Of a stretch of DNA of 64,000 bases, positions 19,007 through 59,400 are shown piece by piece. The notes under the pieces were generated by a model. That model saw only the letters and a program-made list of their open reading frames with translations, was not told where the DNA came from and ran no database searches. Positions within the stretch are counted from its first letter, which is position 1. Each line of letters begins with the position of its first letter. Position numbers and translations under genes: made by a program. Origin of the DNA: Ilyobacter polytropus DSM 2926 (lineage in GTDB: Bacteria; Fusobacteriota; Fusobacteriia; Fusobacteriales; Fusobacteriaceae); assembly GCF_000165505.1 (NCBI RefSeq), contig NC_014632.1, positions 310,001-374,000 on the forward strand. The letters are read 5' to 3'.

Positions 19007-19034
19007 TATTGTCATAATATAATATTTAGTTACT

Positions 19035-19079
19035 GAATCGATAGCTGCCTAAACTTAATGTAAAGGCAGTTATTGGTTC
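19035..19079 (+). terminator. Intercistronic hairpin tctC-tctB (set 1)
   Basis: GAATCGATAGCTGCCT pairs over all 16 positions (with G-U pairs) with AGGCAGTTATTGGTTC. No T-run follows. Probably protects or limits the mRNA between the abundant binding protein and the membrane subunits. Confidence 0.65.
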
Positions 19080-19106
19080 AAACTTAAATAAATTAAGAGG
19101 TGAAAA

Positions 19107-19559
19107 ATGACTCAGAATAAAGTAATCGGTATTTTTGGAGCTTTGCTTACAGCTATATATGGTTTTAGTACATTCAGCGCTACAGGGGCAGGAGCTACTT
19201 TTCTTTCAGGAACTAAAATATTTCCCATGATGGTTATAATATTGACTGCAGTTCTTTCTGCAGTGATATTCTTACAGGATCATTTGGGAAAAGAAAAAGG
19301 TAAAAAGATAGACATAGACAAGAAAGTTTTAATTACTATTGGGAAATCTACACTTATATTTGTTGTTTATACCCTGATTTTTGAGCACCTTGGATATATA
19401 CTTTCTACTGTAGTTCTTTTAATGGGGCTGTTGAGCATTTTAAATAAAGGCAAATTGAAACAAAATATAATTATTTCAGTAGCTTTTTCAGTGATAGCTT
19501 ACTTTGTATTTTCAAAATTATTAGCGATTTCTTTACCGCCAGGAATAATAAATTTTTAA
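19107..19559 (+). CDS. tctB: TctB-family small membrane subunit (set 1)
   Basis: 150 residues with about four membrane helices, the usual TctB form. Charged cytoplasmic loop at about 56-72 (KEKGKKIDIDKK). The C-terminal YFVFSKLLAISLPPG matches the YFVFS.LLAIPLP ending of set 2. It is followed 15 bases later by tctA. Confidence 0.85.
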   Translation: MTQNKVIGIFGALLTAIYGFSTFSATGAGATFLSGTKIFPMMVIILTAVLSAVIFLQDHLGKEKGKKIDIDKKVLITIGKSTLIFVVYTLIFEHLGYILSTVVLLMGLLSILNKGKLKQNIIISVAFSVIAYFVFSKLLAISLPPGIINF

Positions 19560-19574
19560 TCAGGAAGGTGAATT

Positions 19575-21086
19575 ATGTTAGATATATTTTCATATTTAAT
19601 GGGAGGGTTTAGGGAGATATTGACCTTTACCAACGTCATGTGGATATTCTTTGGAGGAATATTTGGTTCTATAGTGGGGATGCTACCTGGACTTGGTCCG
19701 GCCACAGGGATTGCTGTTCTTCTTCCACTGACTTTCGGAATGAATCCTGTGACAGCTTTAAGTACTCTTACAGCGATATATTACGGGGCAATGTTCGGTG
19801 GATCCAGAGCATCTATTTTGATTAATACACCTGGAGACGGAGGAGCAATAGCTGCTACTTTTGACGGATATCCTATGACTAAAAACGGAAAAGCAGGAGA
19901 AGCCTTGGCCATGTCGGCAATAGCTTCTTTTATAGGAGGGGTTATAGCTACAATTTTGATGACATTCTTAGCCGTGTCCATATCAAAAGTTGCAATAAAA
20001 TTTGGACCTCCACAATATTTTACATTGATGATATTCGCCCTCATAGCAACATCAGCAATATCAAGAGGAAATGTAATAAAAGGACTATTTGCCACTTCTT
20101 TAGGACTTATGGTAAGTACTATAGGGGCAGACAGATTGACTGGTACAGTGAGATATACAATGGGGATACCGGAACTATATGAGGGGATAGACTTCCTTAT
20201 ACTGATCATAGGTTTCTATGCCATTGGAGAGGTTTATAATAACTACGGTAAAATATTATTCAACCATGATCCGTCATCAGATGCTAAAGATTCTCATTAT
20301 GATATAAGCAGAGTATGGGTAAGTAAATCTGAGTTTAAAGAGTGTCTTATGCCTATTTTAAGAAGTACGCCTTTAGGATTCTTCATAGGGATACTTCCAG
20401 GTGCTGGAGCTACGATTTCTTCTATGCTGGCATATTCTACTGAAAAAAGTATGTCGAAAGATCCTGATAGTTTTGGTAAGGGGAATATTGTAGGACTTGC
20501 TGCACCAGAAGCGGCAAATAATGCCACAGCAGTTGGAGCTATGATACCTATGCTTACTCTTGGGATACCTGGATCTGGAACAACAGCAGTAATGCTTGGA
20601 GCTCTTATGATGCTTGGTATTAAACCTGGTCCTATGCTATTTACGAGTCAGCCTGATGTAGCATGGGGAGTTTTGGCAAGTATGTACATAAGTAACTTAA
20701 TTCTTGCAGTTATTAATATACCACTTGCATCACAGCTGGTAAAAGTACTTAAAACACCAGAAAAAATTCTCTTGCCACTAGTTGTAGCACTAGGATTTAT
20801 AGGTACCTATGCGCTAAGTTTTGCAACAACAGACTTTTTCATTATTGCACTGTGTGGAGTAATAGCATTTTTCGTTAAGAAACTGAATATCCCAATATCA
20901 TCATTCATATTGGCCCTTATACTAGGAAGTAAGATAGAGACATCTTTCAGGCAGTCTATGGTATTGTCTAAAGGTTCTATGGGTATATTTGCTTCAGATT
21001 CCATAACTATATTCTTTATAATTTTAGCTGTGTTATCTTTATTTGGACCTTTGCTATTGAATAAGATGTTAAGCAACAATAAATAA
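19575..21086 (+). CDS. tctA: TctA-family large permease subunit (set 1)
   Basis: 503-residue permease of the TTT transporter with about 12 hydrophobic segments. Family motifs occur in both halves: MLPGLGPATGIAVLLPLTFG and GGSRASILINTPGDG early, and ILPGAGATISS, GLAAPEAANNATAVGAMIP and LGIPGSGTTAVMLGA later. Nearly the same motif series is found in set 2. With TctB it forms the Na+- or H+-driven channel that accepts ligand from TctC. Confidence 0.92.
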   Translation: MLDIFSYLMGGFREILTFTNVMWIFFGGIFGSIVGMLPGLGPATGIAVLLPLTFGMNPVTALSTLTAIYYGAMFGGSRASILINTPGDGGAIAATFDGYPMTKNGKAGEALAMSAIASFIGGVIATILMTFLAVSISKVAIKFGPPQYFTLMIFALIATSAISRGNVIKGLFATSLGLMVSTIGADRLTGTVRYTMGIPELYEGIDFLILIIGFYAIGEVYNNYGKILFNHDPSSDAKDSHYDISRVWVSKSEFKECLMPILRSTPLGFFIGILPGAGATISSMLAYSTEKSMSKDPDSFGKGNIVGLAAPEAANNATAVGAMIPMLTLGIPGSGTTAVMLGALMMLGIKPGPMLFTSQPDVAWGVLASMYISNLILAVINIPLASQLVKVLKTPEKILLPLVVALGFIGTYALSFATTDFFIIALCGVIAFFVKKLNIPISSFILALILGSKIETSFRQSMVLSKGSMGIFASDSITIFFIILAVLSLFGPLLLNKMLSNNK

Positions 21087-21547: not shown

Positions 21548-21928
21548 AAATTACTGAATTTACAAGAATATTAGAGTCAAAGGATTTTGTCACGAATGAA
21601 AATCAATATAAGGCAAAAAAATTAACACGAATAAGGATAAAACCTTTTGGCCACAGAGGGCACAGAGAAAAAGAGAGAGTTTCACAGAGTGAAAATAAAA
21701 ATATTTTAATTTTTAAACTACTTTCCCCTTTAAAAAATGCCGTTAAGAAATCATCTTGTGAAATCCACTTTCATTGAAATAAGGAGGTTTACCGACTATA
21801 TTTCAATAGAAAGTTAGTTCAGAAGGGATTTTAGGTATTTTTTAGGGGTGCCTTTTCTTTGGTTACTTTCTTTGGGCAAGCAAAGAAAGTAACACAGCTT
21901 TTTGGATAAATTCAATACTTTAATTTGA
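21548..21928 (+). repeat. Dispersed intergenic repeat, copy 1
   Basis: About 380 bases with an inverted second copy at 58922-59400. Shared blocks include TTTACAAGAATATTA, TTTTGTCACGAATGAAAA, CACAGAGTGAAAATAAAA, AAGAAATCATCTTGTGAAAT, GGAGGTTTACCGACTATATT and the far end GGATAAATTCAATACT. It has a perfect 13-bp hairpin GTTACTTTCTTTG / CAAAGAAAGTAAC at 21862-21893. No convincing protein frame. It fills most of the spacer between tct set 1 and the hydratase gene. Confidence 0.85.
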
Positions 21929-22020
21929 AATAAAGATAGCAACTTAGGTTAATCAAACCAAACTAAATATAAATTTGTAGAGCTTCTATTAAGGAAGCTC
22001 TACAAATTTAAAAACTTATT

Positions 22021-26165: not shown

Positions 26166-26810
26166 TTAGTCAAAATCAATAGAGTTAAGAAGGGAAGTCT
26201 CAGCAGATAGAAGATGGGTCGTGTTTACAGCTTTGGCAAGTTCTAGCTGGCTGTTTTTTAAGTATTTGACTATAAGAGAGTGTTCTTCACAGGCTGAGAT
26301 TATTCTTTCTTTACTGTTCAGGGAGCTCAGTCTCAGTTTGGATAATATAAAATCGTATTGTTTTAAAATCTTTATAGTAAACTCCAGTTCTGATTTTTGA
26401 TAGAATATTTTATTGAACTCTAAGAATAACTTCCTGGTCTCTTTCCATTTTTTAAGTTTTATATAGTGTTCTGTGAGGATTAAATTTTCCTCGAGCAAAG
26501 AGATAACCTCTGGATTTTGTGAAATGGATTCTAAGAGAATATTTTCCAGAGCGATTCTTATTTTAAAAATCTCTTTGATCCTTTCAGGGGTAATATCTAT
26601 TATTTTAACCCTTCCATTTGCGAGCCTTTCCACGATGCCTTCTATTTCCAGCTTTTTTATCGCTTCTCGCAAAGGCGTTCTACTTACATTTAATTTTTTT
26701 GAATAATCTATCTCCACTATTCTGTCTCCGAAAGAAAGTTCTCCAGATAAGATCTCTTCCTTTATAGTGTCGTATATATTATCGCTGGTATTTGTTCTTG
26801 GTTTTATCAT
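26166..26810 (-). CDS. GntR/FCD-family regulator
   Basis: 214-residue repressor-type protein. N-terminal winged HTH at about 8-72 with LNVSRTPLREAIKKLEIEG, then an all-helical FCD ligand domain, whose members often bind carboxylates and a metal. It converges on the AAEx-type gene and lies between it and tctCBA set 2. The TTGTATACAA-type operators at 24318, 24514 and 31618-31666 are of the kind FCD proteins bind, so this gene is the best candidate to control them. TTGTATAATG on its own strand (26842-26833) may be an autoregulatory half site. Confidence 0.88.
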   Translation of the reverse strand: MIKPRTNTSDNIYDTIKEEILSGELSFGDRIVEIDYSKKLNVSRTPLREAIKKLEIEGIVERLANGRVKIIDITPERIKEIFKIRIALENILLESISQNPEVISLLEENLILTEHYIKLKKWKETRKLFLEFNKIFYQKSELEFTIKILKQYDFILSKLRLSSLNSKERIISACEEHSLIVKYLKNSQLELAKAVNTTHLLSAETSLLNSIDFD

Positions 26811-27392: not shown

Positions 27393-28421
27393 ATGAACAG
27401 ACGATTTAAGAACTTGTCAAAAATTTTTATCGCAGCTTTATCGATTTTGGCACTTGTATTAACAGGATGCGGAAAAAAAGATGAAGGAACAGCTGCCAAC
27501 ACTGCAGGAGGATATCCTTCTAAACCGATGAACTTTGTTGCACCTGGTGGAGCAGGTGGAGGATGGGACACTACTATTCGTACAGTTGCTAAAACTTTAA
27601 AAGATACTAAACTTGTTAACGTTCCTATGCCTGTAACAAACAAACCTGGTGGAGGAGGGGGAGTTGCCCTTGCTTACCTACAAGAATTAGAAGGGGATGA
27701 CAAAACAATCTCTGTATATTCACCGCCTCTATTACTTATCCACTTAAACGGATCTTCTAAATTAAGCTACAAAGATGTAACTCCTATAGCTAGACTTATC
27801 ACAGACTATGGAGCATTTGTTGTTAAGAAGGGTTCTAAGTATAATAATATTGGTGAGATCATGGACGCTCTTAAGAAAGACCCTAAGAGTGTAAAATTCG
27901 GTGGTAACTCATCTGCAGGAAGTATGGACCATATCCAATTCCTTATGATCGCTAAAGCAGCAGGTGTAAAAAATATAAGAGATATCGACTATATCAGTTA
28001 CCAAAATAACGAAGGAGCTGCTCAGCTTCTAGGAGGACATATTGACCTTCTTTCTACAGGTCTTGGAGACGTATCGGCTCTACTTGAAAGTGGACAATTA
28101 GTAGGACTTGCTCAGACTGCTGACGAAAGAGTAGGAGATGGTGCTCTAGCTGATATCCCTACTTGTAAAGAGTCTGGAATCGACGCAGTTTTCTATAACT
28201 GGAGAGGTCTTTTCGGAGCCCCTGATATGCCAGAAGAAGCTTTAACGTACTGGGAAGATACACTTGCAAAAATGGTTGAAACCCCTGAGTGGGATGAAGC
28301 TGTTAAGAAAAACGGATGGAGTAAATCTTTTGCTAACTCTGCTGATTTTGATGCATTCCTAGAAAAAACAAATGAAGAGTACAAAGAGATCTTAGCTGAT
28401 ATCGGAATGCTTAAACAATAA
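27393..28421 (+). CDS. tctC: TctC-family solute-binding lipoprotein (set 2)
   Basis: 342 residues with signal peptide and lipobox VLTGC (Cys26). Ligand loops APGGAGGGWDTTIR, TNKPGGGGGVALAY and YNWRGLFGAPDMPEEAL match set 1, so the two are closer to each other than to set 3. ATG follows AGGAGGG. Upstream is a 30-bp palindrome and no clear promoter that I can name; the GntR gene upstream is on the other strand. Confidence 0.9.
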   Translation: MNRRFKNLSKIFIAALSILALVLTGCGKKDEGTAANTAGGYPSKPMNFVAPGGAGGGWDTTIRTVAKTLKDTKLVNVPMPVTNKPGGGGGVALAYLQELEGDDKTISVYSPPLLLIHLNGSSKLSYKDVTPIARLITDYGAFVVKKGSKYNNIGEIMDALKKDPKSVKFGGNSSAGSMDHIQFLMIAKAAGVKNIRDIDYISYQNNEGAAQLLGGHIDLLSTGLGDVSALLESGQLVGLAQTADERVGDGALADIPTCKESGIDAVFYNWRGLFGAPDMPEEALTYWEDTLAKMVETPEWDEAVKKNGWSKSFANSADFDAFLEKTNEEYKEILADIGMLKQ

Positions 28422-28439
28422 TATTAGAAAATATAAAAA

Positions 28440-28463
28440 GGCGGCACCTTACCTGGTGTCGCC
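28440..28463 (+). terminator. Intercistronic hairpin tctC-tctB (set 2)
   Basis: GGCGGCACC / GGTGTCGCC, 9 pairs including one G-U, loop TTACCT, no T-run. The 306-base spacer up to tctB holds nothing else I can support. Confidence 0.7.
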
Positions 28464-28727
28464 CTAATAAAAATTGATTTGAATAAAGCCAGTTTAAATG
28501 GTTGACTTGATGTAATTTTTTCAAAGATTTATAACTGAACTCAGGTTGCTATCTTGATGGAAATAATTTATAAATCAATGAAAAAAAATAAAGGTATCAA
28601 AATTTTTAGAGTTTTTTTTTAGGGTTTCAAGTTAACAGACTGAGTTAAATTATGAAGATGACTGTTTTTATATGGTTTTGTTTAACTTTATTGAAAATTA
28701 TAAATACAAAATGTGAGGTGAAGAACA

Positions 28728-29219
28728 GTGAATATCAAAGTTAAAACAACAATGGCTTTCACAGTGTTTGGGCTTTTATACACAGTAGTTGCTCTTATGA
28801 TGCCGAAGGCTGCAGTTGGAAATCCTTTTGCTCCTAAAGTTTTTCCGCTTATATTAGGGATAGGGCTTACTGTAATGGGAGCTCTGTACACTGTAAAGGA
28901 ATATAAACATTGGAAAGAGGAGCAAGCTTCTGGAGTAGAAGAAGAGATTAGTCCTAAAAAACAGGAAATTGAAAATAAAACTAACAAGCTTATAACTATT
29001 ACAGCTGTTGCTGGAATAGTTTATGCGGCAATATTTGAACATGCTGGTTATGTAATATCTACCTCGCTGTTTATAGGGGCAATAATGTTCGCAATTAATG
29101 GTAAGAAAAAATGGATGTTGAATTTGGCAGTGGCTATAATTTTTAGTGTTGCAGTTTATTTTGTTTTCTCGACACTTTTAGCTATACCGCTTCCTAAAAT
29201 ACCTGGTTTGGAAATATAA
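28728..29219 (+). CDS. tctB: TctB-family small membrane subunit (set 2)
   Basis: 163 residues, about four membrane helices with a long charged loop (EYKHWKEEQASGVEEE and on). Starts with GTG, 7 bases after GAGGTG. Ends YFVFSTLLAIPLPKIPGLEI, the TctB C-terminal pattern. Confidence 0.85.
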   Translation: MNIKVKTTMAFTVFGLLYTVVALMMPKAAVGNPFAPKVFPLILGIGLTVMGALYTVKEYKHWKEEQASGVEEEISPKKQEIENKTNKLITITAVAGIVYAAIFEHAGYVISTSLFIGAIMFAINGKKKWMLNLAVAIIFSVAVYFVFSTLLAIPLPKIPGLEI

Positions 29220-29237
29220 CGGAGGTGAAGTTTTAAA

Positions 29238-30740
29238 ATGATGGAGATATTACAAAATTTGATGCACGGTTTTTCCGTTGCTGCTACACCGATGAACTTA
29301 TTGTGGGTAACAATCGGAGGAACTTTAGGAACTATAGTTGGAATGCTTCCAGGACTTGGACCTGCAACTGGGGTTGCTGTTTTACTGCCCCTTACATTTA
29401 CAATGGGACCTACGGCGGCTCTTATTACAATGTGTGGGATATATTATGGTGCGATGTTTGGTGGATCGAGAAGTTCGATACTTATAAATACTCCAGGTGA
29501 TGGAGCTGCCCTTGCAGCTACATTTGACGGGTATCCTATGGCTATGAACGGACGTGCAGAGGCAGCTCTGGCTATGTCAGCTGTAGCGTCTCTTATAGGT
29601 GGAATTATCTCTGCTGTTCTTATAACTTTCGTAGCTACTCCGGTTTCGATGTTTGCGTTGAAATTCGGACCTGCAGAATATTTCCTTTTGATGGTTGCTG
29701 CTCTTTCTATGACAGCCTCTATGTCTAAGGGTAATATGATCGGTGGATTTGTATCTATGTTTGTCGGACTTATCATAGCAACTGTTGGACTTGATGCCCA
29801 GTCTGGTGTTCCTAGATTTACTTTTGGAATAATGGAACTTCAGCAGGGAATAGACTTCCTTATCCTTATTATAGGTATCTATGCACTTGGGGAAGTGTTT
29901 AAAAGTTTTAAGTCTATAAATGAAGGTCAAAAGGATATGCAGAAGAAATTTGGTAAAATCTGGTTTACCAAAGAGGACTGGAAAGAATGTCTTATGCCGA
30001 TATTGAGAAGTACTCCTTTAGGTTTTATCGTAGGAGCTCTTCCTGGAGCAGGAGGAACAATGGCTTCTCTTATGTCGTATAACAATGAGAAACAACTTTC
30101 AAAAGATCCTGATAGTTTTGGTAAGGGTAATATTGTAGGACTAGCAGCACCAGAAGCGGCAAACAACGCTGCATCTGTGGGAGCTCTAATCCCTATGCTA
30201 ACACTTGGAATTCCTGGGTCCGGTACAACTGCGGTAATGATGGGAGCTCTGCTTATGCTAGGACTTCAACCAGGACCAATGCTATTTGTTCAGCATCCAG
30301 ATATCGCCTGGGGTCTTATAGCAAGTATGTTTATTGGTAATATAGTTCTGGCTATAGTTAATATACCTCTAGCGGGATTACTTGTAAGAGTTTTGGCTAT
30401 ACCACCAAAAATCTTATATCCAATAGTTCTTGGGCTCGCCTTCATAGGAACTTATGCTATAGGAAACAGTGCTATGGACTTCTACCTACTGGTTATATTC
30501 GGTGTTATGGGGCTGTTCATGTCAAAAGCAAAAGTGCCTACAGCACCTATGATTCTTGGGGTAATAGTTGGAGGAACTATGGAGCAATCATTCAGACAAG
30601 CGATAGTTCTATCTGATGGTAGCCTAAGTATCTTTACAGGATCACCTCTAGCTATAACTTTAATAGCTTTAACAGTTGGATCGGTTATTTTCCCTCTAAT
30701 AAAAGAAGCTATGAAAAATAAAAAGCTTGCAAGTGCCTAA
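29238..30740 (+). CDS. tctA: TctA-family large permease subunit (set 2)
   Basis: 500 residues. Motifs: MLPGLGPATGVAVLLPLTFT, GGSRSSILINTPGDGAALAA, ALPGAGGTMASL, GLAAPEAANNAASVG and LGIPGSGTTAVMMGALLML. The same layout as set 1 shows duplication of the whole operon. It lies 19 bases after tctB and is followed by a small RHH-like gene. Confidence 0.92.
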   Translation: MMEILQNLMHGFSVAATPMNLLWVTIGGTLGTIVGMLPGLGPATGVAVLLPLTFTMGPTAALITMCGIYYGAMFGGSRSSILINTPGDGAALAATFDGYPMAMNGRAEAALAMSAVASLIGGIISAVLITFVATPVSMFALKFGPAEYFLLMVAALSMTASMSKGNMIGGFVSMFVGLIIATVGLDAQSGVPRFTFGIMELQQGIDFLILIIGIYALGEVFKSFKSINEGQKDMQKKFGKIWFTKEDWKECLMPILRSTPLGFIVGALPGAGGTMASLMSYNNEKQLSKDPDSFGKGNIVGLAAPEAANNAASVGALIPMLTLGIPGSGTTAVMMGALLMLGLQPGPMLFVQHPDIAWGLIASMFIGNIVLAIVNIPLAGLLVRVLAIPPKILYPIVLGLAFIGTYAIGNSAMDFYLLVIFGVMGLFMSKAKVPTAPMILGVIVGGTMEQSFRQAIVLSDGSLSIFTGSPLAITLIALTVGSVIFPLIKEAMKNKKLASA

Positions 30741-31317: not shown

Positions 31318-31346
31318 TTGACACACTAAAGTAGGTGCGTTATAAT
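31318..31346 (+). promoter_or_regulatory. Promoter of structured RNA copy A
   Basis: TTGACA, 17 bases, TATAAT: exact consensus. Transcription would start near 31353. Confidence 0.85.
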
Positions 31347-31352
31347 TGTGCA

Positions 31353-31500
31353 AGAAAGGTCTAAGAAGAACGCGTTTGTGTAGCTTTTTAGAGGCTGTTT
31401 TTTAAAATTAATATTAAATTGGTAATTTTTAGGGATAACTTAAGTTAAGCTCTAACAGGCCAGTGCGAAGTATTTTAACTTTGTATTGGCCTGTTTTTTA
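31353..31500 (+). ncRNA. Structured leader/small RNA, copy A (upstream of citrate operon)
   Basis: About 147 bases from promoter to T-run. 5' stem TCTAAGAAG (31360) / CTTTTTAGA (31384) with inner ACGC/GTGT pairing; conserved TTGGTAATT (31419); hairpin TAAC-TTAA-GTTA (31436-31447); terminator AACAGGCCAGTGCGAAG (31454) / CTTTGTATTGGCCTGTT (31479) plus T6. Copies B and C share the core at the same spacing. TTGG can pair with CCAG of the terminator's left arm, giving a possible antiterminator. A second promoter (31581) stands between this RNA and oadA, so copy A may be a free small RNA or an extra, attenuated promoter for the operon. Confidence 0.75.
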
Positions 31501-31580
31501 TTTTTAAAATAGCTATCAATAGAAAAACAAATTTAGTCTTTAACAAGTTATTAAAATCCTTTAATATTTAGGATTAAGCG

Positions 31581-31609
31581 TTGACAAAGATAGTATATGG
31601 ATGTAAGAT
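31581..31609 (+). promoter_or_regulatory. Second promoter of the citrate operon
   Basis: TTGACA, 17 bases, TAAGAT; start expected near 31616, right at the operator. Confidence 0.75.
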
Positions 31610-31617
31610 ATGTGTTG

Positions 31618-31639
31618 GAAATACTGTATACAGTATTTC
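31618..31639. promoter_or_regulatory. 22-bp palindromic operator of the citrate operon
   Basis: Perfect palindrome with core ATACTGTATACAGTAT, extended by GAA on the left and TTC on the right, covering the predicted transcription start. Form fits a GntR/FCD regulator. Confidence 0.7.
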
Positions 31640-31649
31640 TTATGGTGAG

Positions 31650-31666
31650 TTTTGTATACAGTATTC
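31650..31666. promoter_or_regulatory. Second operator copy of the citrate operon
   Basis: TTTTGTATACAGTATTC repeats the right side and core of the 31618 palindrome about 30 bases downstream. Confidence 0.6.
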
Positions 31667-31690
31667 TTAAATAAAATTGAGGTGATTCTT

Positions 31691-49031: not shown

Positions 49032-49097
49032 GTAATTAAATCAGTATTTCATTTGGCTTACTGTGAAAATTTTTATTTAAAAAATAGGAGGTCCAAA

Positions 49098-49265
49098 ATG
49101 TACGTAATCGATAAAGAAGCTTGTATTGCATGTGGAGCATGTGAAGGAACTTGTCCAGTATCAGCAATTTCTGCTGCAGACGGTAAATATGAAATTTCAG
49201 ATGCATGTATCGACTGTGGAGCATGTGCAGGAGTATGTCCTGTAGAGTGTATCACGGCTCAGTAA
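49098..49265 (+). CDS. 2[4Fe-4S] ferredoxin, copy 1
   Basis: 55-residue clostridial-type ferredoxin with two CxxCxxCxxxCP cluster motifs: CIACGACEGTCP and CIDCGACAGVCP. The ATG at 49098 follows AGGAGG. Low-potential electron carrier; possible partner of bifurcating Bcd-EtfAB or pyruvate:ferredoxin oxidoreductase. Confidence 0.95.
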   Translation: MYVIDKEACIACGACEGTCPVSAISAADGKYEISDACIDCGACAGVCPVECITAQ

Positions 49266-49306
49266 TATCAAAAAATATTTTAAAAAATAAAATAGGGGGT
49301 TTTAAA

Positions 49307-49474
49307 ATGTACGTAATCGATAAAGAAGCTTGTATTGCATGTGGAGCATGTGAAGGAACTTGTCCAGTATCAGCAATTTCTGCTGCAGACGGTAAATATG
49401 AGATTTCAGATGCTTGTGTAGACTGTGGAGCATGTGCAGGAGCATGTCCTGTAGACGCAATCGCTGCTGGTTAA
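49307..49474 (+). CDS. 2[4Fe-4S] ferredoxin, copy 2
   Basis: Same length and cluster motifs as copy 1, 41 bases downstream. The first 98 or so bases of the two genes are identical; differences lie in the second half (CVDCGACAGACPVDAIAAG). A young tandem duplication or gene conversion. Confidence 0.95.
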   Translation: MYVIDKEACIACGACEGTCPVSAISAADGKYEISDACVDCGACAGACPVDAIAAG

Positions 49475-49484
49475 TAAAAAATTT

Positions 49485-49617: not shown

Positions 49618-49646
49618 TTGACATGCAGCGGGATGGAAAATACGCT
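49618..49646 (+). promoter_or_regulatory. Promoter of structured RNA copy B
   Basis: TTGACA, 17 bases, TACGCT. The -35 is perfect, the -10 weak, so an activator may be needed. Confidence 0.55.
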
Positions 49647-49652
49647 GGCAGG

Positions 49653-49801
49653 TTAAAAGACTCAAAGGGAATAGAAGCCTAAGGCTCTTTGGGATTTTTA
49701 TAGAAAAAATGATATTAATTGGTAATTGTTAGAGATGACTTTCGTTGAGACTTTAACAGGCCAATACAGAGGGTAAAATCTTTGTATTGGCCTGTTTTTT
49801 A
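49653..49801 (+). ncRNA. Structured leader/small RNA, copy B (upstream of UspA-like gene)
   Basis: 5' stem CTCAAAG (49661) / CTTTGGG (49687) with inner AGCC-TAA-GGCT; TTGGTAATTGTTAG (49719); hairpin TGAC-TTTC-GTTG (49736-49747); terminator AACAGGCCAATACAGAG (49755) / CTTTGTATTGGCCTGTT (49780) and T6. TTGG+TGTTA can pair with TAACA+CCAA, which would open the terminator. The UspA-like gene starts 82 bases after it with no other clear promoter, so here it looks like a true 5' leader. Confidence 0.78.
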
Positions 49802-49882
49802 TATTTTTAAGTTGATACTGGGATTTATTTAAACTGATTATTTAGAGGGCATAATTAAATTTAAAAGGGGAAGGTGATTAAA

Positions 49883-50668
49883 GTGTTGAACAGAGTGCTG
49901 ATAAAGTTGGATAATCAAGAGGAAGTAAAGCATCTTGCAAAGTACGCTAATATGATCAAAAAGAATTATCCAGAGGCGGAGATAGTGGGTATCTTTATAC
50001 ATCCAAGTATAGGGGAGCATTCCTTCAGGGAGTTTAGGGGTGTTGGTGGAGATTATGACATCGGTGAGGCCAAAAGTGAGCACAAGGCTAAGATAGAAAA
50101 AATTATGGAGGATGAGAATAAAATAAGAGAAGAGTTTTTATCTTTGGTGGAAAATTCTAGTTTTTATGCAAAAATAGGAGACATCCCTGAGGTGCTCATG
50201 GATGAACTAAGGTTATTTGATCTGGCAGTAATTTCTAAAACTGATAAAATAGGCCATGATTTAAGGGAGATTTTTAAAAATCATAATAAGCCTATTATAC
50301 TAGTACCTGAATTGGAAAACTACTCACTAGACAGAATTTTAGTGGCTGATGACCAGGGGTTAGAAGTAAATAAGTCTGTTTTCAAGTTCATGGGTGTTTT
50401 TGAAAAGACAAGGGAATTTAAAGCTGTAACAGTGGGAGTAAGTCAGGAAGAGGTAAAGGATCTTAATTTCTATCTAGAAAAAATAGATAAAAAAATAGAT
50501 TATAAGTTTGAAGAAGGGGCAGTCGACAAGATCATACTAAATTATGCCAAAGATTGTGATATGTTGATAATGGGAAATTTAAAACGTTCTTTTATGGTTG
50601 AAAAATTAATAGGAACTGGAGGAATAAGGGCATTAGAAGAAGTCAAAAAACCGATCTTCATAGGATGA
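49883..50668 (+). CDS. UspA-like stress protein, paralogue
   Basis: 261 residues, similar along its length to the gene at 39627-40421 (shared HLAKYANMIKKNYPEAEIVGIFIH-type start, IILVPELENYSLDRILVADD-like block given here in shortened form, and MLIMGNLKRSFMVEKLI near the end). GTG at 49883 is chosen: it aligns with the ATG of the paralogue and is 6 bases after AAGGTG. Downstream of structured RNA B, upstream of RNA C and prpF. Role unknown; linkage to carboxylate genes in both places is notable. Confidence 0.75.
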   Translation: MLNRVLIKLDNQEEVKHLAKYANMIKKNYPEAEIVGIFIHPSIGEHSFREFRGVGGDYDIGEAKSEHKAKIEKIMEDENKIREEFLSLVENSSFYAKIGDIPEVLMDELRLFDLAVISKTDKIGHDLREIFKNHNKPIILVPELENYSLDRILVADDQGLEVNKSVFKFMGVFEKTREFKAVTVGVSQEEVKDLNFYLEKIDKKIDYKFEEGAVDKIILNYAKDCDMLIMGNLKRSFMVEKLIGTGGIRALEEVKKPIFIG

Positions 50669-50803: not shown

Positions 50804-50832
50804 TTGACATAAAAAACTTTGTGGCTTATACT
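50804..50832 (+). promoter_or_regulatory. Promoter of structured RNA copy C
   Basis: TTGACA, 17 bases, TATACT. Confidence 0.82.
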
Positions 50833-50838
50833 GGTACA

Positions 50839-50984
50839 GTAGAGGCTTAAAGAAGACACGTTGTGCAAACCTTTAAGATTTTTTTAAGAAATCAAATATT
50901 TTGTTGGTAATTATTAGAGATGACTATGGTCAAGACTTTAATAGGCCAACACAAAGAGATAATCTTTGTGTTGGCCTATTTTTT
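50839..50984 (+). ncRNA. Structured leader/small RNA, copy C (upstream of prpF-tctCBA)
   Basis: 5' stem CTTAAAG (50846) / CTTTAAG (50871) with inner CAC-GTT-GTG; TTGGTAATTATTAG (50904); hairpin TGAC-TATG-GTCA (50921-50932); terminator ATAGGCCAACACAAAG (50941) / CTTTGTGTTGGCCTAT (50964), 16 perfect pairs, then T-run. Against copy B, TGTTA/TAACA has become TATTA/TAATA: both sides changed together. The gene for the PrpF-like isomerase starts 82 bases after the T-run. Confidence 0.8.
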
Positions 50985-51066: not shown

Positions 51067-52185
51067 ATGAGAAAGTTTCCATGTACTATTTTGAGATCTG
51101 GTACAAGTAAGGGTGTTTTTTTCAATGAAAAGGATATGCCTAAAGACAAGGAAAAATGGGAAGATTTTCTTTTAGACGTTATGGGGAGTCCTGATAAAAA
51201 ACAGATAGACGGACTAGGAGGAGCTAATTCTCTCACAAGTAAGGTAGCCATAATAAAAAAATCAGAAAGAGAAGGTTTTGATGTAGATTATACATTTGCC
51301 CAAGTAAGTCTCACTGCTAGAAAAATAGATATGAAAGGTAACTGCGGAAACATATCGTCTGGTGTAGGTCCATTTGCAATTGATAACGGTCTGGTAGAAG
51401 CTATAGAACCTACTACAAAGGTAAGAATATACAATACAAATACAGGAAAAACAATTGAATCAGAGGTAAAAGTTTCAAATGGTATGTATGATCCAGATGG
51501 AGATACAAAAATACCAGGTGTACCAAATACCGGTTCAGTAGGTTATTTATCATTCTATGCACCGGAAGGTTCAGTGACTGGCAAGCTTCTTCCTACAGGA
51601 AAGGCTGTGGATACAATAGAAACTTCTGTAGGAACAATAGATATATCAATAGTAGATGCTGCAAACCCACTTGTATTTATAAAAGCAGAGGATGTAGGAT
51701 TAAAAGGTACTGAGCTACATTATGAGTTTTCGCAAGAAAAATTAGATCTTTTGGAAGAGATAAGATCTATAGCAGCAGAGTTATGCGGTTTTGCAAAAAA
51801 AGAAGATGCTACTAAAAATTCACCTGCAGTTCCTAAAACTACTGTAATATCAGCACCACAAGATTATAAAGATGAACCTGGAACACTGTATAGATCTGAT
51901 GAAATGGATCTTGTAATCAGGATGATGTCTATGCAAAAACCTCATCAGGCACTAGCTATAACAGGGGCTGTTTGTACATCATTAGCTGCAGCAACAGAAG
52001 GAACACTGGTATCTAAAATAGCCAGCCCAGATGAAAATGGAAAACTGAGATTGGGACATCCCGGAGGAGTAATGAATGCATACTCAGGCAAAGGTGATAA
52101 CGAAGATGTCTATGTAAAAGTAGAAAGAACAGCGAGACGTATTATGGAAGGTATTGTCTATACAAGAGGAGATTATGAAATCTAA
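51067..52185 (+). CDS. prpF: PrpF-family isomerase (aconitate/methylaconitate/oxalomesaconate type)
   Basis: 372-residue cytoplasmic isomerase with the diaminopimelate-epimerase fold. ILRSGTSKGVFF at 8-19, GGANSLTSKVAII (Lys59) and KGNCGNISSGVGPFA (Cys93) match PrpF active-site regions; LGHPGGVM is near the end. PrpF proteins move the double bond or flip cis/trans in aconitate-like acids. First gene before tctCBA set 3, so it probably isomerises the imported acid, for example trans- to cis-aconitate. 4-Oxalomesaconate tautomerase is an alternative. Confidence 0.88.
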   Translation: MRKFPCTILRSGTSKGVFFNEKDMPKDKEKWEDFLLDVMGSPDKKQIDGLGGANSLTSKVAIIKKSEREGFDVDYTFAQVSLTARKIDMKGNCGNISSGVGPFAIDNGLVEAIEPTTKVRIYNTNTGKTIESEVKVSNGMYDPDGDTKIPGVPNTGSVGYLSFYAPEGSVTGKLLPTGKAVDTIETSVGTIDISIVDAANPLVFIKAEDVGLKGTELHYEFSQEKLDLLEEIRSIAAELCGFAKKEDATKNSPAVPKTTVISAPQDYKDEPGTLYRSDEMDLVIRMMSMQKPHQALAITGAVCTSLAAATEGTLVSKIASPDENGKLRLGHPGGVMNAYSGKGDNEDVYVKVERTARRIMEGIVYTRGDYEI

Positions 52186-52233
52186 TAATCTCGGTATCTT
52201 TAAAATATATAAAAAAAAACTAAGGAGGAATTT

Positions 52234-53229
52234 ATGAAAAGAATTGCGTTGTTAGTTGTTGGGATAATTACAGCTTTGGCCATGGTAGGATGCGGTGGAC
52301 AGCCAGGAGGAAAAGATGGAGGGGATACAGCAGCATATCCTAAAAAACCTATCGAAATGATAATACCTTTTGGAGAAGGTGGAGCGAGTGACACTTTTGC
52401 AAGAAAATTTGCGGACATAATGGCAAAAGATATGCCTCAGCCAATACAAGCTATCAATAAAAAAGGAAGTAGCGGACTTGTTGGAATGGTCTATGCGGCT
52501 CAAAAGAAAAATGATGGATACACTATCTTAGAGGTGACTCCTTCAATGGTAATCGCAGATGCCCTTGAGGTAAGTGAGTCGATTAAATTCATGAAGGATT
52601 TTGAACCACTAGCAAGAATTCAGTCAGACATCTATGTACTGTGTCTTCCTGGAGACAGTAGATTTAGCTCTTTCCAAGAATTAGTTGAGTATGGACAGAA
52701 TAACCCTGTAACTTTTGCAGGAGTAAGCCCAGGGGGTCTTGATGACTTGACTCTAAATGCTTTAGCTGATGCTACAGGTGTAGATATCAAATTCATACCT
52801 TATAAATCAGGGTCTGAAGTAAAAGCAGCTGTACTTGGTGGAGAAGTAGATATCTATCTTGATAAAATTGTTTCTGCTGTAAACTATATCAAAGACGGAA
52901 AAGTAAAACCTGTAGTTGTGTTAAACGAAGAAAGAATCGACAAAATCGATGTATTTAAATCTGTACCTACAACTGTTGAATTAGGTTATGATGTAACAAT
53001 CGGTTCTTGGAGAGGTTTCGTTGTTAAGAATGGAACTCCTCAAGAAATCAAGGATTACTTAATAGATAAAATGGAAAAAGCTTATGCTACTCAAGAGTAC
53101 CAAGATTTTGCTGCTCTAAATCTAGTGGACATAAGACCTGGATACCTAGATGCTGAAGGTTTCTACAAGCAGTGGGAATCAGAGTATGAGAAGTTTGACG
53201 CTGTTGCAAAGAAAGTTGGCTTAAAATAA
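52234..53229 (+). CDS. tctC: TctC-family solute-binding lipoprotein (set 3)
   Basis: 331 residues; signal peptide with lipobox MVGC (Cys20) and Gly-rich linker. Ligand loops PFGEGGASDTFARKF, NKKGSSGLVGM and GSWRGFVVKNGTP differ from the GGGWD and HPGMT versions of sets 1 and 2, so a different ligand is likely. Located 48 bases after prpF; ATG follows AAGGAGG. Confidence 0.9.
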   Translation: MKRIALLVVGIITALAMVGCGGQPGGKDGGDTAAYPKKPIEMIIPFGEGGASDTFARKFADIMAKDMPQPIQAINKKGSSGLVGMVYAAQKKNDGYTILEVTPSMVIADALEVSESIKFMKDFEPLARIQSDIYVLCLPGDSRFSSFQELVEYGQNNPVTFAGVSPGGLDDLTLNALADATGVDIKFIPYKSGSEVKAAVLGGEVDIYLDKIVSAVNYIKDGKVKPVVVLNEERIDKIDVFKSVPTTVELGYDVTIGSWRGFVVKNGTPQEIKDYLIDKMEKAYATQEYQDFAALNLVDIRPGYLDAEGFYKQWESEYEKFDAVAKKVGLK

Positions 53230-53240
53230 TTAATTTATTG

Positions 53241-53268
53241 TAGGGTGTCCGCTAAAGTGGACATCCTA
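53241..53268 (+). terminator. Intercistronic hairpin tctC-tctB (set 3)
   Basis: TAGGGTGTCC / GGACATCCTA, 10 pairs with one G-U, loop of 8, no T-run; same place as in sets 1 and 2. Confidence 0.68.
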
Positions 53269-53294
53269 TCAAATATAAAGGAGTGGAATGAAAA

Positions 53295-53774
53295 ATGGGT
53301 GAAATAATTTTTCACATTTTCCTATTAGTAGTAATGGGAGCTTTTTATAAACAGTCATTAGACATAAATACTGCACGTATGACAGATCCTATCGGACCTG
53401 CAGGATTTCCAAAAACGATAATATATGTAGCTGTTATACTGATCGTAATTTCTCTTGTATCAAATATTAAAAACTACAAGGCGAATAAACCAAAGGAAAA
53501 AGAGAAGATAAAAGAGCTAGATCCTGGATTCTTGGCATTATTGGGAATAATCGTTTTCTTTGTACTTGCAGTTAATTATATTGGATTCTGGTTTGGTGGA
53601 ATCATTATAATCTCATCGACGATGTGGATTTTAAATCAAAGAAAAATATCGAAACTGGTTATAATAACATTAGTAGGATCTTTAGTCTTCACTTTTGTTT
53701 TCGGTAAAATACTAAGTATACCTCTACCAAGAGGATATGGAATATTTGAAACTATCAGTTATTATATTTATTAA
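53295..53774 (+). CDS. tctB: TctB-family small membrane subunit (set 3)
   Basis: 159 residues, about four membrane helices, charged loop (NKPKEKEKIKELD), ending in VFGKILSIPLPRGYGIFE, the TctB pattern. It starts AAAATGGG after AAGGAG with rather long spacing (11 bases). Confidence 0.84.
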   Translation: MGEIIFHIFLLVVMGAFYKQSLDINTARMTDPIGPAGFPKTIIYVAVILIVISLVSNIKNYKANKPKEKEKIKELDPGFLALLGIIVFFVLAVNYIGFWFGGIIIISSTMWILNQRKISKLVIITLVGSLVFTFVFGKILSIPLPRGYGIFETISYYIY

Positions 53775-53788
53775 ACGGAGGATAAACA

Positions 53789-55303
53789 ATGGATACTTCT
53801 TTATTAATTGAAGCGTTGAAAACGATATTTATGCCTACTAACTTCCTGTTGGTTTTGGCCGGTATGACTTTGGGGGTATTTTTCGGAGCCCTACCTGGAA
53901 TCAGTTCATCAATGGGTATTGTTCTTATGATACCATTTACTTACTACATGGGGATAATCCCGTCAATAGTTCTTCTTGTTGCTTTATATGCTGGATCTGC
54001 CTATGGTGGTTCTATAACGGCTATATTATTTAATACTCCTGGAACAGCGGAATCTGTTGCCACAACATTTGACGGATATCCAATGGCACAACAGGGAAAA
54101 GCAGGTAAGGCACTTGGCCTTGCAATGTCAGGATCTGCAATTGGTGGAATTTTCTCAGTGTTGGTAATGCTTTTACTAGCACCACTACTATCAAAAATTG
54201 CACTTAAAATACAAAGTGCTGAGTACTTTGCATTGACACTACTAGGAATCGCATGTATATCTTCAGTTGGTTCAAAAAATCTTTCTAAAGCTTTGGTAAC
54301 AGGGTTATTGGGTATAATAATCGCAATGGTTGGAATGGACCCTATGACTGGAGTTTCAAGACTTACATTTGGACAAATTAACTTTTTAAATGGTATAGAG
54401 TATATACCTATCATGATCGGTTCATTTGCCATGGCTGAGGTTTTCAAACAGGTTATAAATAGAAAAAGCGAAGAAAAAACTATGGATATGGGCGACAGTG
54501 TATCTATGGAAAGTATCAAGCTAAAAGATCTTCTTGTGTATAAAGTTACTATTATAAAATCTGCAATAATTGGAACAGCAGTTGGAATACTTCCTGGTAC
54601 AGGTGGATCAATAGCATCTATCGTTAGTTACGGTGAAGCGGCTCGTTCTAGAAAAGATAAGGCAAGATTTGGAAATGGAGCCGAAGAGGGAGTGTTAGCA
54701 CCTGAGACAGCAAACAACGCCGCTGGTGGAGGGGCAATGATACCTACTCTTGTACTTGGGATACCAGGATCTCCGACTACGGCAATCATCCTAGCTGCAC
54801 TTGTTCTCCAAGGCTTACAGCCTGGTCCTCAGCTAATGACAGAGCAGCCATTGTTATTATACTGCATCTTCTTCTCGATGCTTATTGCAAGTACTGTTGT
54901 GTTCCTTTCAGGAAGATACGCAGTAAAAGCATTTGCTGCAGTATTAAAACTTCCTTATGGAATCATAGCACCTATGATCGTTATGTTCTCAATTATCGGG
55001 GCCTATGCAAGATCTAACGATATGTTCCAGATCTGGGTAATGCTTACATTTGGTGTATTTGGTTATTTCATGAAGAAATACCAGTTCTCTGCAGCATCAC
55101 TTATCCTTGGAATCGTACTTGGTAACATGATGGAAGAGAGCTTCAGAAGACAACTTCTTATTTCAAATGGAAGTTATATGTCATTCTTACAAAGACCAAT
55201 AGCAGTTGCAATATTTATAGCAGTAGCCTTTGTTCTTTTCTTCCCTATAGTTGCTGGTATGATGGAAAAGAAAAAAGCTACAGCAGCTGCACAGAATTTA
55301 TAA
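53789..55303 (+). CDS. tctA: TctA-family large permease subunit (set 3)
   Basis: 504 residues. Motifs: GALPGISSSMGIVLMIPFTY, GGSITAILFNTPGTAESVA, ILPGTGGSIASIVSYGEA, APETANNAAGGGAMIPT and LGIPGSPTTAIILAAL. These differ from sets 1 and 2 (LPGLGPATG, SILINTPGDG), placing set 3 in another branch, in line with its divergent TctC. Confidence 0.92.
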   Translation: MDTSLLIEALKTIFMPTNFLLVLAGMTLGVFFGALPGISSSMGIVLMIPFTYYMGIIPSIVLLVALYAGSAYGGSITAILFNTPGTAESVATTFDGYPMAQQGKAGKALGLAMSGSAIGGIFSVLVMLLLAPLLSKIALKIQSAEYFALTLLGIACISSVGSKNLSKALVTGLLGIIIAMVGMDPMTGVSRLTFGQINFLNGIEYIPIMIGSFAMAEVFKQVINRKSEEKTMDMGDSVSMESIKLKDLLVYKVTIIKSAIIGTAVGILPGTGGSIASIVSYGEAARSRKDKARFGNGAEEGVLAPETANNAAGGGAMIPTLVLGIPGSPTTAIILAALVLQGLQPGPQLMTEQPLLLYCIFFSMLIASTVVFLSGRYAVKAFAAVLKLPYGIIAPMIVMFSIIGAYARSNDMFQIWVMLTFGVFGYFMKKYQFSAASLILGIVLGNMMEESFRRQLLISNGSYMSFLQRPIAVAIFIAVAFVLFFPIVAGMMEKKKATAAAQNL

Positions 55304-55652: not shown

Positions 55653-58067
55653 ATGAGTTTTATAAGAGAAATTATAAAGTATAAAAAATCTATATTGATA
55701 TTTTTTACAGGTTTGATATTCGCTGTCTCACTGGCCTTTACAATTTTGAAAAACTATAAAGATTTGAGAGATGCACTGGTTCTAAATGAGCAGAAACACC
55801 TTTTGACAATTGCAGATACAACTGCAAAAAGTATAGAGTCATATTTCCTAGAAGAAGAGAGATCAATGAGAATTCTTGCCCGGGATACTGGTTTTTTGAG
55901 AGATTTTGAGTATTTGAAAGATAAGGATGAAAGATATTTAGGGGAATCTCTTAAGATATATTATAAAATAGGGGCCCCTAGAATTAAGTCCATACAACTA
56001 TTGGATTTTAAAGGAATAATCTTAGACGAGTATCCCACTAAATCTAAAGATAATATATCAAAAGATATCTCAGATTTAAAAGATGTAAAAAAAATAATAA
56101 AAAATAAAGAGCAAGTATTAAGTTCAGTTTATTTTGAAAATAGAGACCCATTTATATACATATTGCAGCCAATATTTAATCGAGGGAAGTTTCAGGGGAT
56201 TATAAGGTGCAAACTGAGTATAGACAATATATATAAAAGATTTATAGAGAATATAAGATCTGGTAGTAAAGGGTATGCCTCTGTAAAAACTAAAGATGGA
56301 ATTTTTTTGATGCATCCTAAGAAAAGTCAGATCAGTGGCCATGTAATGCAGCTAAGAAAGTCCAAATATCCAAATTATGATTGGTCTGAGCTAGAAAAAC
56401 TTTTTGAAAAGCAAAGATCTGGAGAAAAGGGAGTGGAGATTTATCGTTCTGTATGGGTTACAGATGACGACTCTAAGATGGTTAAGAAATTCAACGGATA
56501 TTCTCAGGCTTATATAGGAGATACATTTTGGATAGTAACAGTCGCTTCTGATTATGATGAGGTAGTTAAAATTATCAAAAAAAATTATTATTATACAGTG
56601 GCAATAGCGACACTTATTGTACTTAGTATAAGTTTACTGGCTGCATATATATACAGCATAAGGGAGAAAAAGGCTAAGCTAGAGATGAAATCTTTGCATT
56701 TAAATGAGGTGAAAAAACTAAACAGCGAATTAGAAGAAGATATAGAGAAAAGAAAATTATTGGCAAAAGAACTTGTCAAATCAAAAAATAAATATGAGGC
56801 GATGTTTAACAGCATCAATGACTGTGTATTTGTGGCAGACTTTGAGAACAACTCTTTTGAAGATATAGTTGAGGTAAATGAAAAAGTTTATAAGAGGCTG
56901 AAGTATACACGAGAAGAACTTTTAAAAATGAAATACTCTGATATAGATGTAGGTTTATCAGTGAATGAAGGAAAAAAGATACTAGAAAAGATGTTAGACA
57001 AGAGATCTGTAATGTATGAAACGGAAATAAAGACAAAGTTTAACAAAAAAATCCCCGTAGAAGTAAGTGGTAGACTATTTAAAATGGAAAATAAATACAG
57101 GGCAATCTTAATATCTAGAGATATTACCTTGAGGAAAATCCAAGAGGAAACAGTAAAAAGAAGTGAGGCCAGATTTTTTAATATCGTAAATAAGTTAGCA
57201 AGTGATATAGAAGGAGAAAATTCAGATACAACTAAAATAAAACTTGGAAAAGATATTAATAACCAAAAGATACTTTTAAAGCTTGAAAAAATAAATATTG
57301 AACTGGAAAAAATGTTTAAAAAAGAGATGGACGAGAACAAAAAGAAAGAGGCACTCATGATCTATCAGTCAAGATATGCAGCTATGGGAGAGATGGTAGG
57401 GAATATAGCTCACCAGTGGAGACAGCCTTTAAGTTCATTATCTCTTATAATCTCAAATATAGAGGATTCTTTCTTTTACGGAGACGTTGATAAAGAGGAT
57501 GTGGAATCTCTTTTTAAAAAATCTAGAATGCTTATAAATAAAATGTCTGAGACTATAGATGATTTTAGATATTTCTTTAAACCAAAAACAAATAAAGAAG
57601 AATTTCATGTAAAAAATGTCGTAACATCTACAGTAGAATTATTTAACGAAAGAATGCGATATAACGGTATAGAGTGCAATGTAGAAACAGAGAATGATGT
57701 GAAGATATGGGGGTATCCAAATCAATTGTCCCAGGTAATATTGAATTTTATAAATAATGCCGTAGATGCCCTGCTAGAAAATCGAGAAAAGGAAAGAAAA
57801 ATTGATATATTGATATCAGAAGAAAAAAACAGTGCTATTGTTGAAGTCCAAGATAACGGAGGAGGAATACCTGAAGGGGTAATGGAAAAGATATTTGAAC
57901 CATATTATTCCACCAAAGAGAAAAAAAATGGGACAGGTATAGGACTTTACATGTCACAAATGATAGTGGAAAAGAATTTTGACGGAAAAATATATGTGAT
58001 AAATAAAAATAACGGAGCGTGTATGAAGATAATTATTCCTATGGGTGGTGAAAATGAAAATGCTTGA
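55653..58067 (+). CDS. Sensor histidine kinase with dCache and PAS domains
   Basis: 804 residues. Membrane helix about 12-33, extracytoplasmic dCache region to about 305, second helix about 312-335, coiled coil, PAS domain about 380-490 (EAMFNSINDCVFVADF), another coiled stretch, H-box GNIAHQWRQPL with His587, N-box NFINNAVDALL, G1 DNGGGIPEG, G2 GTGIGLYMSQM. No receiver, unlike the two hybrid kinases. The extracellular part resembles theirs (KGYASVKTKDGIFLMHP against FGYAVVKDSTGKILMHP), so all three may sense related acids. Overlaps the response regulator by 8-23 bases depending on its start. Confidence 0.93.
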   Translation: MSFIREIIKYKKSILIFFTGLIFAVSLAFTILKNYKDLRDALVLNEQKHLLTIADTTAKSIESYFLEEERSMRILARDTGFLRDFEYLKDKDERYLGESLKIYYKIGAPRIKSIQLLDFKGIILDEYPTKSKDNISKDISDLKDVKKIIKNKEQVLSSVYFENRDPFIYILQPIFNRGKFQGIIRCKLSIDNIYKRFIENIRSGSKGYASVKTKDGIFLMHPKKSQISGHVMQLRKSKYPNYDWSELEKLFEKQRSGEKGVEIYRSVWVTDDDSKMVKKFNGYSQAYIGDTFWIVTVASDYDEVVKIIKKNYYYTVAIATLIVLSISLLAAYIYSIREKKAKLEMKSLHLNEVKKLNSELEEDIEKRKLLAKELVKSKNKYEAMFNSINDCVFVADFENNSFEDIVEVNEKVYKRLKYTREELLKMKYSDIDVGLSVNEGKKILEKMLDKRSVMYETEIKTKFNKKIPVEVSGRLFKMENKYRAILISRDITLRKIQEETVKRSEARFFNIVNKLASDIEGENSDTTKIKLGKDINNQKILLKLEKINIELEKMFKKEMDENKKKEALMIYQSRYAAMGEMVGNIAHQWRQPLSSLSLIISNIEDSFFYGDVDKEDVESLFKKSRMLINKMSETIDDFRYFFKPKTNKEEFHVKNVVTSTVELFNERMRYNGIECNVETENDVKIWGYPNQLSQVILNFINNAVDALLENREKERKIDILISEEKNSAIVEVQDNGGGIPEGVMEKIFEPYYSTKEKKNGTGIGLYMSQMIVEKNFDGKIYVINKNNGACMKIIIPMGGENENA

Positions 58068-58833
58068 TAAAACAAATTTACTTATTAAATACAAGGTTCT
58101 CTATGTGGAAGATGACGAGATGCAGAGAGAAAATCTCAAGATATTTTTAAAGAGAAGAGTTGGAAAACTTTACATGGCAGAAAATGGGAAAGAGGGCTTG
58201 AAAGTTTTTGAAGAGCAGAATCCAGACATAATAATAACAGACCTTAAGATGCCTATAATGGACGGGATAGAGATGAGTAAGAAAATCCGAGAAAAAAATA
58301 AAAAATCCGGGATAGTGATAACAACTGCCTTTTCTGATGTGGAAACTGTTCTAAGTGCCATGGATGTCGGTATAGACAAGTATATACTTAAACCTGTTGA
58401 CACAGGAAAACTTATAGAGGCTATGGAAGAGATAGCCCTTCGTCTTACAGGGGAAGAGTCTGGAAATCTTGTGTTGGACGATAAGATAATATCTGACAAA
58501 AAAGAAAAACTAGAATATGAGAGTAAGATACAGATAAAAATAGCTTATTTTATAAAAAGTAACACTGGGAAAGGTCCTAAATCTGTAAAAGCCTTTATAA
58601 AGGGCAGCCTGATAGAGATAGAGGCCAATGATCCACTTACTATCTATGAGAAAAAACTTCTGGAACAAAGTAAGAACAAAAGCCTTGTAAATTTTAGTAG
58701 AGAGGCATTTTATAATGACAGGAAGAATGAGATCGAAAAAATAATTTTTGAAATATTAGGAGTAAAAGGCAACCTAGAAAGAGTGACCATAGATTTTAAA
58801 AATAACAGAGACATACTGGTTATTTCTGTTTAA
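58054..58833 (+). CDS. Response regulator: receiver fused to DUF2294 (MpsC-like) domain
   Basis: About 259 residues from ATG 58054 (ATG 58060 and GTG 58045 are also possible; the start overlaps the kinase). Receiver with EDDE pocket, phospho-acceptor in IITDLKMP (Asp63), Lys113 in LKPVDT. The C-terminal 100 residues are not a DNA-binding domain: SKIQIKIAYFIKSNTGKGPK, SVKAFIKGSLIEIEAND, LTIYEKKLLEQ and the end fit DUF2294 (PF10057). The output is therefore probably protein-protein or membrane-related rather than transcriptional. Upstream kinase is its obvious partner. Confidence 0.82.
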   Translation: MKMLDKTNLLIKYKVLYVEDDEMQRENLKIFLKRRVGKLYMAENGKEGLKVFEEQNPDIIITDLKMPIMDGIEMSKKIREKNKKSGIVITTAFSDVETVLSAMDVGIDKYILKPVDTGKLIEAMEEIALRLTGEESGNLVLDDKIISDKKEKLEYESKIQIKIAYFIKSNTGKGPKSVKAFIKGSLIEIEANDPLTIYEKKLLEQSKNKSLVNFSREAFYNDRKNEIEKIIFEILGVKGNLERVTIDFKNNRDILVISV

Positions 58834-58870: not shown

Positions 58871-58921
58871 AATTGGAATTTAAGAATTATAGTATATTTT
58901 AATCTAAGGTGTTTTTTTTTT

Positions 58922-59400
58922 AAAATTAGAGTATTGAATTTATCCAAAAGCTCCTGTTACTTTCTTTGCTTGCCCAAAGTACCCCAAGGGCATTTCCTCC
59001 CTTCGGTCAGGGCAAAAGTAACCAAAGAAAAGGCACCCAATTAAAACTAATGAAACTTGTAAAAATAAATTTTACAAGAACTAGAAAATATATTCGTTTT
59101 ACTCATTATTTTCTAAGTCAAATCACTTCTGAACTAACTTTCTATTGAAATATAGTCGGTAAACCTCCTTATTTCAATGAAAGTGGATTTCACAAGATGA
59201 TTTCTTAACGGTATTTTTTAAAGGGGAAAGTAGTCTGAAAATTAAAATATTTTTATTTTCACTCTGTGCAACATACACTTTTATGATGCTCTGTGGTCAA
59301 AAAGTTTTATCTTTATTCGTCTTAATTTTTTTGCCTTTTATAGGTTTTCATTCGTGACAAAATCTTTTGACTTTAATATTCTTGTAAATTTAGTAATTTG
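58922..59400 (-). repeat. Dispersed intergenic repeat, copy 2 (inverted)
   Basis: About 480 bases, reverse complement of 21548-21928 with two extra pieces: about 33 bases inside the GTTACTTT hairpin loop, and about 70 bases between the TTCAGAAG and GGGTGCC blocks, the latter including a 9-bp hairpin CTTGTAAAA / TTTTACAAG at 59056-59078. A 60-codon frame at 58966 inside it is not a gene. Fills the 679-base spacer between the two-component operon and pgeF. Confidence 0.85.

Follow-up and report, generated by a model that had tools for sequence, protein, structure and literature searches.

The leader RNA described here is probably an antiterminator/terminator switch run by a two-component system with an MpsC-type response regulator. 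Three copies of it (A, B and C) are present within the window, by which we mean the whole 64-kb stretch of Ilyobacter polytropus DSM 2926 DNA that was analysed, and the genome around it comprises 3.13 Mb in three contigs. A diverged copy D is located elsewhere on the same contig (at 1253050), upstream of a membrane-protein gene (L023:8294-9835, minus strand) whose product matched no Pfam or NCBIfam family. All four copies recur in both other genomes of the genus (three genomes in total).

Copies A, B and C share a common layout, in which a TTGACA-N17-TATAAT-like promoter is followed by hairpin 1, a linker and hairpin 2, and the 3′ side of hairpin 2 runs into an intrinsic terminator. In copy B (plus strand, as are the features of copies A and C given below), the promoter-like site read from the sequence is TTGACA-N17-TACGCT (49618–49646), an arrangement also found in copies A, C and D. 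The folded upstream stem-loop, hairpin 1 (CUCAAAGGG/CUCUUUGGG), occupies 49661–49693, and the antiterminator hairpin (hairpin 2) occupies 49719–49764 (model R3, 55.3 bits, E 8e-13). The latter is built from the P1 helix UUGG/CCAA, the stem UGUUAGAG/CUUUAACA and an apical stem-loop, with an asymmetric internal loop of 1 nt on the 5′ side and 2–3 nt on the 3′ side. The overlapping intrinsic terminator (49755–49800) has its left arm at 49755–49771, its right arm at 49780–49794 and its U-run at 49795–49800. Copy C has its promoter-like site (TTGACA-N17-TATACT) at 50804–50832, its antiterminator hairpin at 50904–50949 (R3, 63.5 bits, E 4e-15) and, from sequence and folding, its terminator at 50941–50984. 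For copy A, the corresponding features are the promoter-like site TTGACA-N17-TATAAT (31318–31346), hairpin 1 (31360–31392, with an A/AG internal loop as in hairpin 2 and a weak R3 match at 31365–31387), hairpin 2 (31419–31463; R3, 58.6 bits, E 9e-14) and a terminator (31454–31499), again from sequence and folding. Before the oxaloacetate decarboxylase gene that follows copy A, the region 31577–31670 contains a second promoter-like site (TTGACA-N17-TAAGAT) and two palindromic boxes (ATACTGTATACAGTATT and TGTATACAGTATT); a gene for a GntR-type regulator is found at 26166–26810.

The two pairings that the sequence-only reading had proposed for copy B were confirmed at their coordinates, TTGG (49719–49722) with CCAA (49761–49764) and TGTTA (49727–49731) with TAACA (49754–49758). 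That reading had also taken TAACA and CCAA to make up the left arm of the terminator; both do fall within or at the edge of this arm, but they are a part of it and not the whole, which is (T)AACA-GG-CCAA-UACAGAG. In copy C the inner pair is indeed TATTA/TAATA (50912–50916/50939–50943), with both strands changed. The closed hairpin domain and the terminator, proposed as alternatives, are found to be mutually exclusive, and this is supported by the P1 helix, which across 28 aligned elements has 94.2% of its cells paired and double changes in three of its four pairs.

Thermodynamic folding of both states, which had been suggested as a check, showed that each can form and that the terminator is far stronger than the antiterminator. 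The computed energies of copies A, B and C are −9.0, −11.7 and −12.9 kcal/mol for the antiterminator and −26.6, −26.8 and −27.5 kcal/mol for the terminator, a gap of about 14–18 kcal/mol. Compared with shuffled sequences, the antiterminator hairpin is significantly stable in copies B (z −3.6) and C (z −4.3), and not in copy A (z −1.0). When growing 3′ ends were folded, the antiterminator appeared first, and the terminator won once its right arm had mostly been transcribed. Since the terminator is the stronger fold and wins late, the unaided leader should terminate, and thus switching on the operon should need something that holds the antiterminator.

For copies A, B and C alone, the covariation is not significant (106 of 500 shuffles equal it), and the P1 match taken alone is within chance for UUGG/CCAA in copy B (p ~0.18) and has p ~0.03 in copy C. 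The significance of the switch, as judged from sequence, comes from its relatives in other genomes and not from the difference between copies B and C. Among the 28 aligned elements, 93.3% of the cells are paired vs 78.5% in shuffles, and 66 cells show double changes vs 21.9, a number reached by none of the 500 shuffles; these counts are biased in favour of the structure, to which the alignment had been fitted. The signal is lost when the strands are slid against each other, and the P1 variants UUGG/CCAA, UUGA/UCAA and CUGA/UCAG can be read in the unaligned sequences. Strong covariation is present in every helix of the extended family, including the strand that competes with the terminator, so that the leaders have the mutually exclusive hairpins with a covarying competing strand by which an antiterminator/terminator switch is recognised. 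Unpaired positions are scarcely conserved, with the exception of the A/NG internal loop, which has an A on its 5′ side and two nucleotides on its 3′ side above a G-C pair. Of 24 leaders, seven have this motif of hairpin 2 in hairpin 1 as well, where shuffles would give 0.13, and such a pair of sites might match a response regulator that acts as a dimer.

A domain search of Clostridia gave receiver-MpsC fusions of the same architecture as the window regulator described below, and leaders of matching hairpin and terminator type were seen in the DNA 3′ of these fusions. About 60 loci were then read from the roughly 75 such clostridial regulators that a further search returned. Model R1, built from window copies A, B and C only and searched against 644 kb of clostridial DNA, found ten elements (E 7e-9 to 0.05), all ten of them 108–190 nt past the stop codon of an MpsC response-regulator gene. 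Conversely, the mixed model R2 recovers copies B and C, both of which had been left out of it (E 1e-6 to 1e-8). In roughly one quarter of the regulator loci of Clostridia, no terminator was seen within the first 900 nt downstream; where the element is missing, it may have diverged or may lie at another place in the genome, as it does before citC (see below). When 85,000 species genomes were scanned for the exact pattern, there were five chance-like matches without terminators, as would be expected of a pattern that is too strict. Searches of plasmid DNA and of viral-contig proteins gave no relatives, and a plasmid protein search gave generic response regulators only.

In addition to this proximity, we have also checked the co-occurrence of the RNA and the regulator. 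Among 98 Fusobacteria genomes, MpsC is above cut-off in three, the same three that have the RNA, a coincidence confounded by kinship since all three are of one genus. The nine strong RNA matches are copies A, B and C in these genomes, and every other fusobacterial match has an E of at least 0.0046. In 325 clostridial genomes, model R3 gave 26 matches in 25 genomes, 23 of which have the regulator, a proportion that is partly circular since the sampled group includes loci that trained the model; the two genomes without a regulator have the weakest of the matches listed. When the model-training genomes are left out, the regulator is present in four of six genomes with the RNA vs 46 of 300 (Fisher p 0.007). 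The four non-training matches are 10–13 kb from the regulator gene and directly precede citC, identified as a citrate lyase ligase gene from its resemblance to the Pfam-confirmed one at locus L052; at least three of these neighbourhoods also contain tctA.

In the window, a sensor histidine kinase gene (dCache, PAS, HisKA and HATPase domains; 55653–58067, plus strand) and, downstream of it, the response regulator gene (58045–58833, plus strand) are the last genes of the copy C operon. The regulator, the putative RNA-binding antiterminator protein, is the only MpsC protein of its genome; it consists of Response_reg and MpsC domains only, the C-terminal MpsC match being well above cut-off, and no DNA-binding domain was recognised in it. 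No element is found directly 3′ of its gene, so any action must be in trans. Inverted repeat pieces of 65–163 nt, 88–94% complementary and about 37 kb apart, are present at 21548–21934 and 58915–59399 in apparently intergenic stretches, and could represent a mobile or repetitive element.

The Pfam name of MpsC/DUF2294 (PF10057) describes a part of a Na+-translocating membrane system, whereas its fusion to a receiver domain and its link with leader RNAs in the present case suggest that it is regulatory. A PDB search for MpsC gave no credible relative and no solved structure, and prediction from the single sequence (pLDDT 38) gave no usable model. We know of no RNA-binding data for any MpsC domain. 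A literature search, which covered subscription papers in part, so that an earlier description may exist, found no paper in which DUF2294 is connected with response regulators or with RNA. Clostridial genomes commonly also encode stand-alone MpsC/DUF2294 proteins (118–147 aa) that lack a receiver domain.

The genes downstream of the elements mostly serve citrate/tricarboxylate or purine uptake and use. Copy A precedes oxaloacetate decarboxylase and citrate lyase genes (from 31652), copy C the tricarboxylate transporter operon prpF, tctC, tctB, tctA (51067–55303, plus strand) and copy B a gene for a distant universal-stress-like protein (49874–50668, plus strand; Usp below the Pfam cut-off). 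The window holds three tctCBA-type transporter sets (17996–21086, 27393–30740 and 52234–55303), as well as a tandem pair of ferredoxin-like genes (49080–49481) that are 88% identical across 193 nt. In the wider family, the citrate-type targets are 2HCT citrate carriers with citrate lyase and oxaloacetate decarboxylase genes, and the purine-type targets are xanthine/uracil permeases with molybdenum hydroxylase subunits. A second hairpin class, with the competing helix UUAUGGA/UCCAUAA, corresponds to one fully supported regulator clade and precedes genes for small DNA-binding-like proteins and chemotaxis receptors (3′ of the regulator gene in loci L094, L095, L096, L097, L102, L104, L110, L112, L114 and L115); its hairpin loop is different (a 1-nt C bulge). 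In the regulator tree the window protein clusters with the citrate and tricarboxylate types with modest support, and genome G601 has three regulator paralogues and three RNA variants.

This agreement between RNA class and regulator phylogeny, together with the regulator's lack of a recognised DNA-binding domain, makes it unlikely that some other RNA-binding protein (ANTAR, BglG/SacY or NusG-like) runs the switch while the MpsC regulator is merely co-located and binds DNA or acts otherwise. Such antiterminators do use similar overlapping hairpins (PMC3369931), but the ANTAR domain (PF03861) was found neither in the regulator nor in the window genome, although control genomes likewise gave none. 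The ANTAR hexaloops are not conserved in this RNA family either, since a 6-nt loop of that type (A1, G4, closed by 3 bp) occurs in 5 of 28 cores and never as the apical loop.

The likeness to ligand-operated transcriptional riboswitches drawn by the sequence-only reading was not supported. The leader position, exclusive structures and conserved internal loops, and the promoter upstream of transport operons, would all suit a metabolite riboswitch whose hairpin domain is closed by a ligand, for instance citrate, so that termination is prevented. However, citrate operons and purine operons have this core in common although their substrates are unrelated, and the accompanying kinases have different sensor domains (NMT1/THI5 next to purine operons; dCache in the window kinase and in one kinase of a citrate neighbourhood), so a common small-molecule ligand is implausible. 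Moreover, conservation of unpaired positions outside the A/NG loop is slight, and the RNA is found just 3′ of MpsC response-regulator genes and is essentially confined to genomes with such a regulator. Rfam 15 gave no match in the window at the gathering threshold, nothing relevant around the finding at E up to 10, and none in 12 clostridial loci. We therefore consider a riboswitch distinctly improbable. That the copies are small RNAs with an incidental alternative hairpin is hardly credible: each does have a promoter-like site and a strong terminator some 150 nt later, and another promoter-like site follows copy A, but covariation between the competing strand and the terminator arm is seen across Fusobacteria and Clostridia, and the elements are consistently upstream of operons of matching function. 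Both the riboswitch and the small-RNA readings rank below two-component antitermination.

In the proposed two-component antitermination mechanism, transcription from the TTGACA/TATAAT-like promoter would yield the two hairpins, the second of which, as a closed domain, would sequester part of the terminator left arm. By default the much stronger terminator would form and transcription would stop. From the location of the elements and their co-occurrence with the regulator, we infer that the MpsC/DUF2294 protein binds this RNA. The sensor kinase would detect its nutrient, probably a citrate-like or purine compound, and phosphorylate the regulator; the active regulator would then bind one or both hairpins, with the small asymmetric A/NG internal loop as the probable contact site, and keep hairpin 2 closed, so that the polymerase could read into the citrate/tricarboxylate genes.

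The closest known mechanism is that of the ANTAR systems (EutVW of Enterococcus faecalis, AmiR and NasR), in which a response regulator binds a leader with two hairpins, the second of which overlaps an intrinsic terminator (PMC3369931). The same two-hairpin arrangement is found here, as is a response regulator in the operon context, and termination is predicted to be the default. In contrast, the output domain is MpsC (PF10057) instead of ANTAR (PF03861), and the motif is an A/NG internal loop below a variable tip instead of a hexanucleotide loop with A1 and G4. Thus, the switch would work like ANTAR antitermination but is not a member of it. With BglG/SacY/LicT and their RAT it shares the plan of a single terminator-overlapping hairpin that a protein stabilises when a nutrient is sensed; however, RAT is a 29–30 nt element recognised by PTS-linked proteins (PMC3369931), whereas the hairpin here is about 46 nt and its associated protein is a two-component regulator. 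With ON-type transcriptional riboswitches it shares the choice between antiterminator and terminator in a 5′ leader, but this RNA is tied to a protein and has no plausible common ligand.

Taken together, we think it likely that MpsC/DUF2294 is an RNA-binding output domain, and that receiver-MpsC proteins and tandem hairpins with A/NG loops make up a second family of two-component antitermination, independent of ANTAR and divided into matching subfamilies of regulator and RNA, which serves citrate, tricarboxylate, purine and chemotaxis genes in Clostridia and in this fusobacterial genus. ANTAR is an established RNA-binding output type of response regulators (PMC3369931); MpsC would be a second such type, unrelated to it and with a defined leader RNA, and a domain listed in Pfam under the name of a sodium-translocating membrane system would gain a testable function. 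If the MpsC domain does bind RNA, the stand-alone MpsC/DUF2294 proteins may also be RNA-binding. The family would further offer matched, possibly orthogonal protein-RNA pairs, for example in genome G601, and would explain how citrate and purine use is controlled in many anaerobes.
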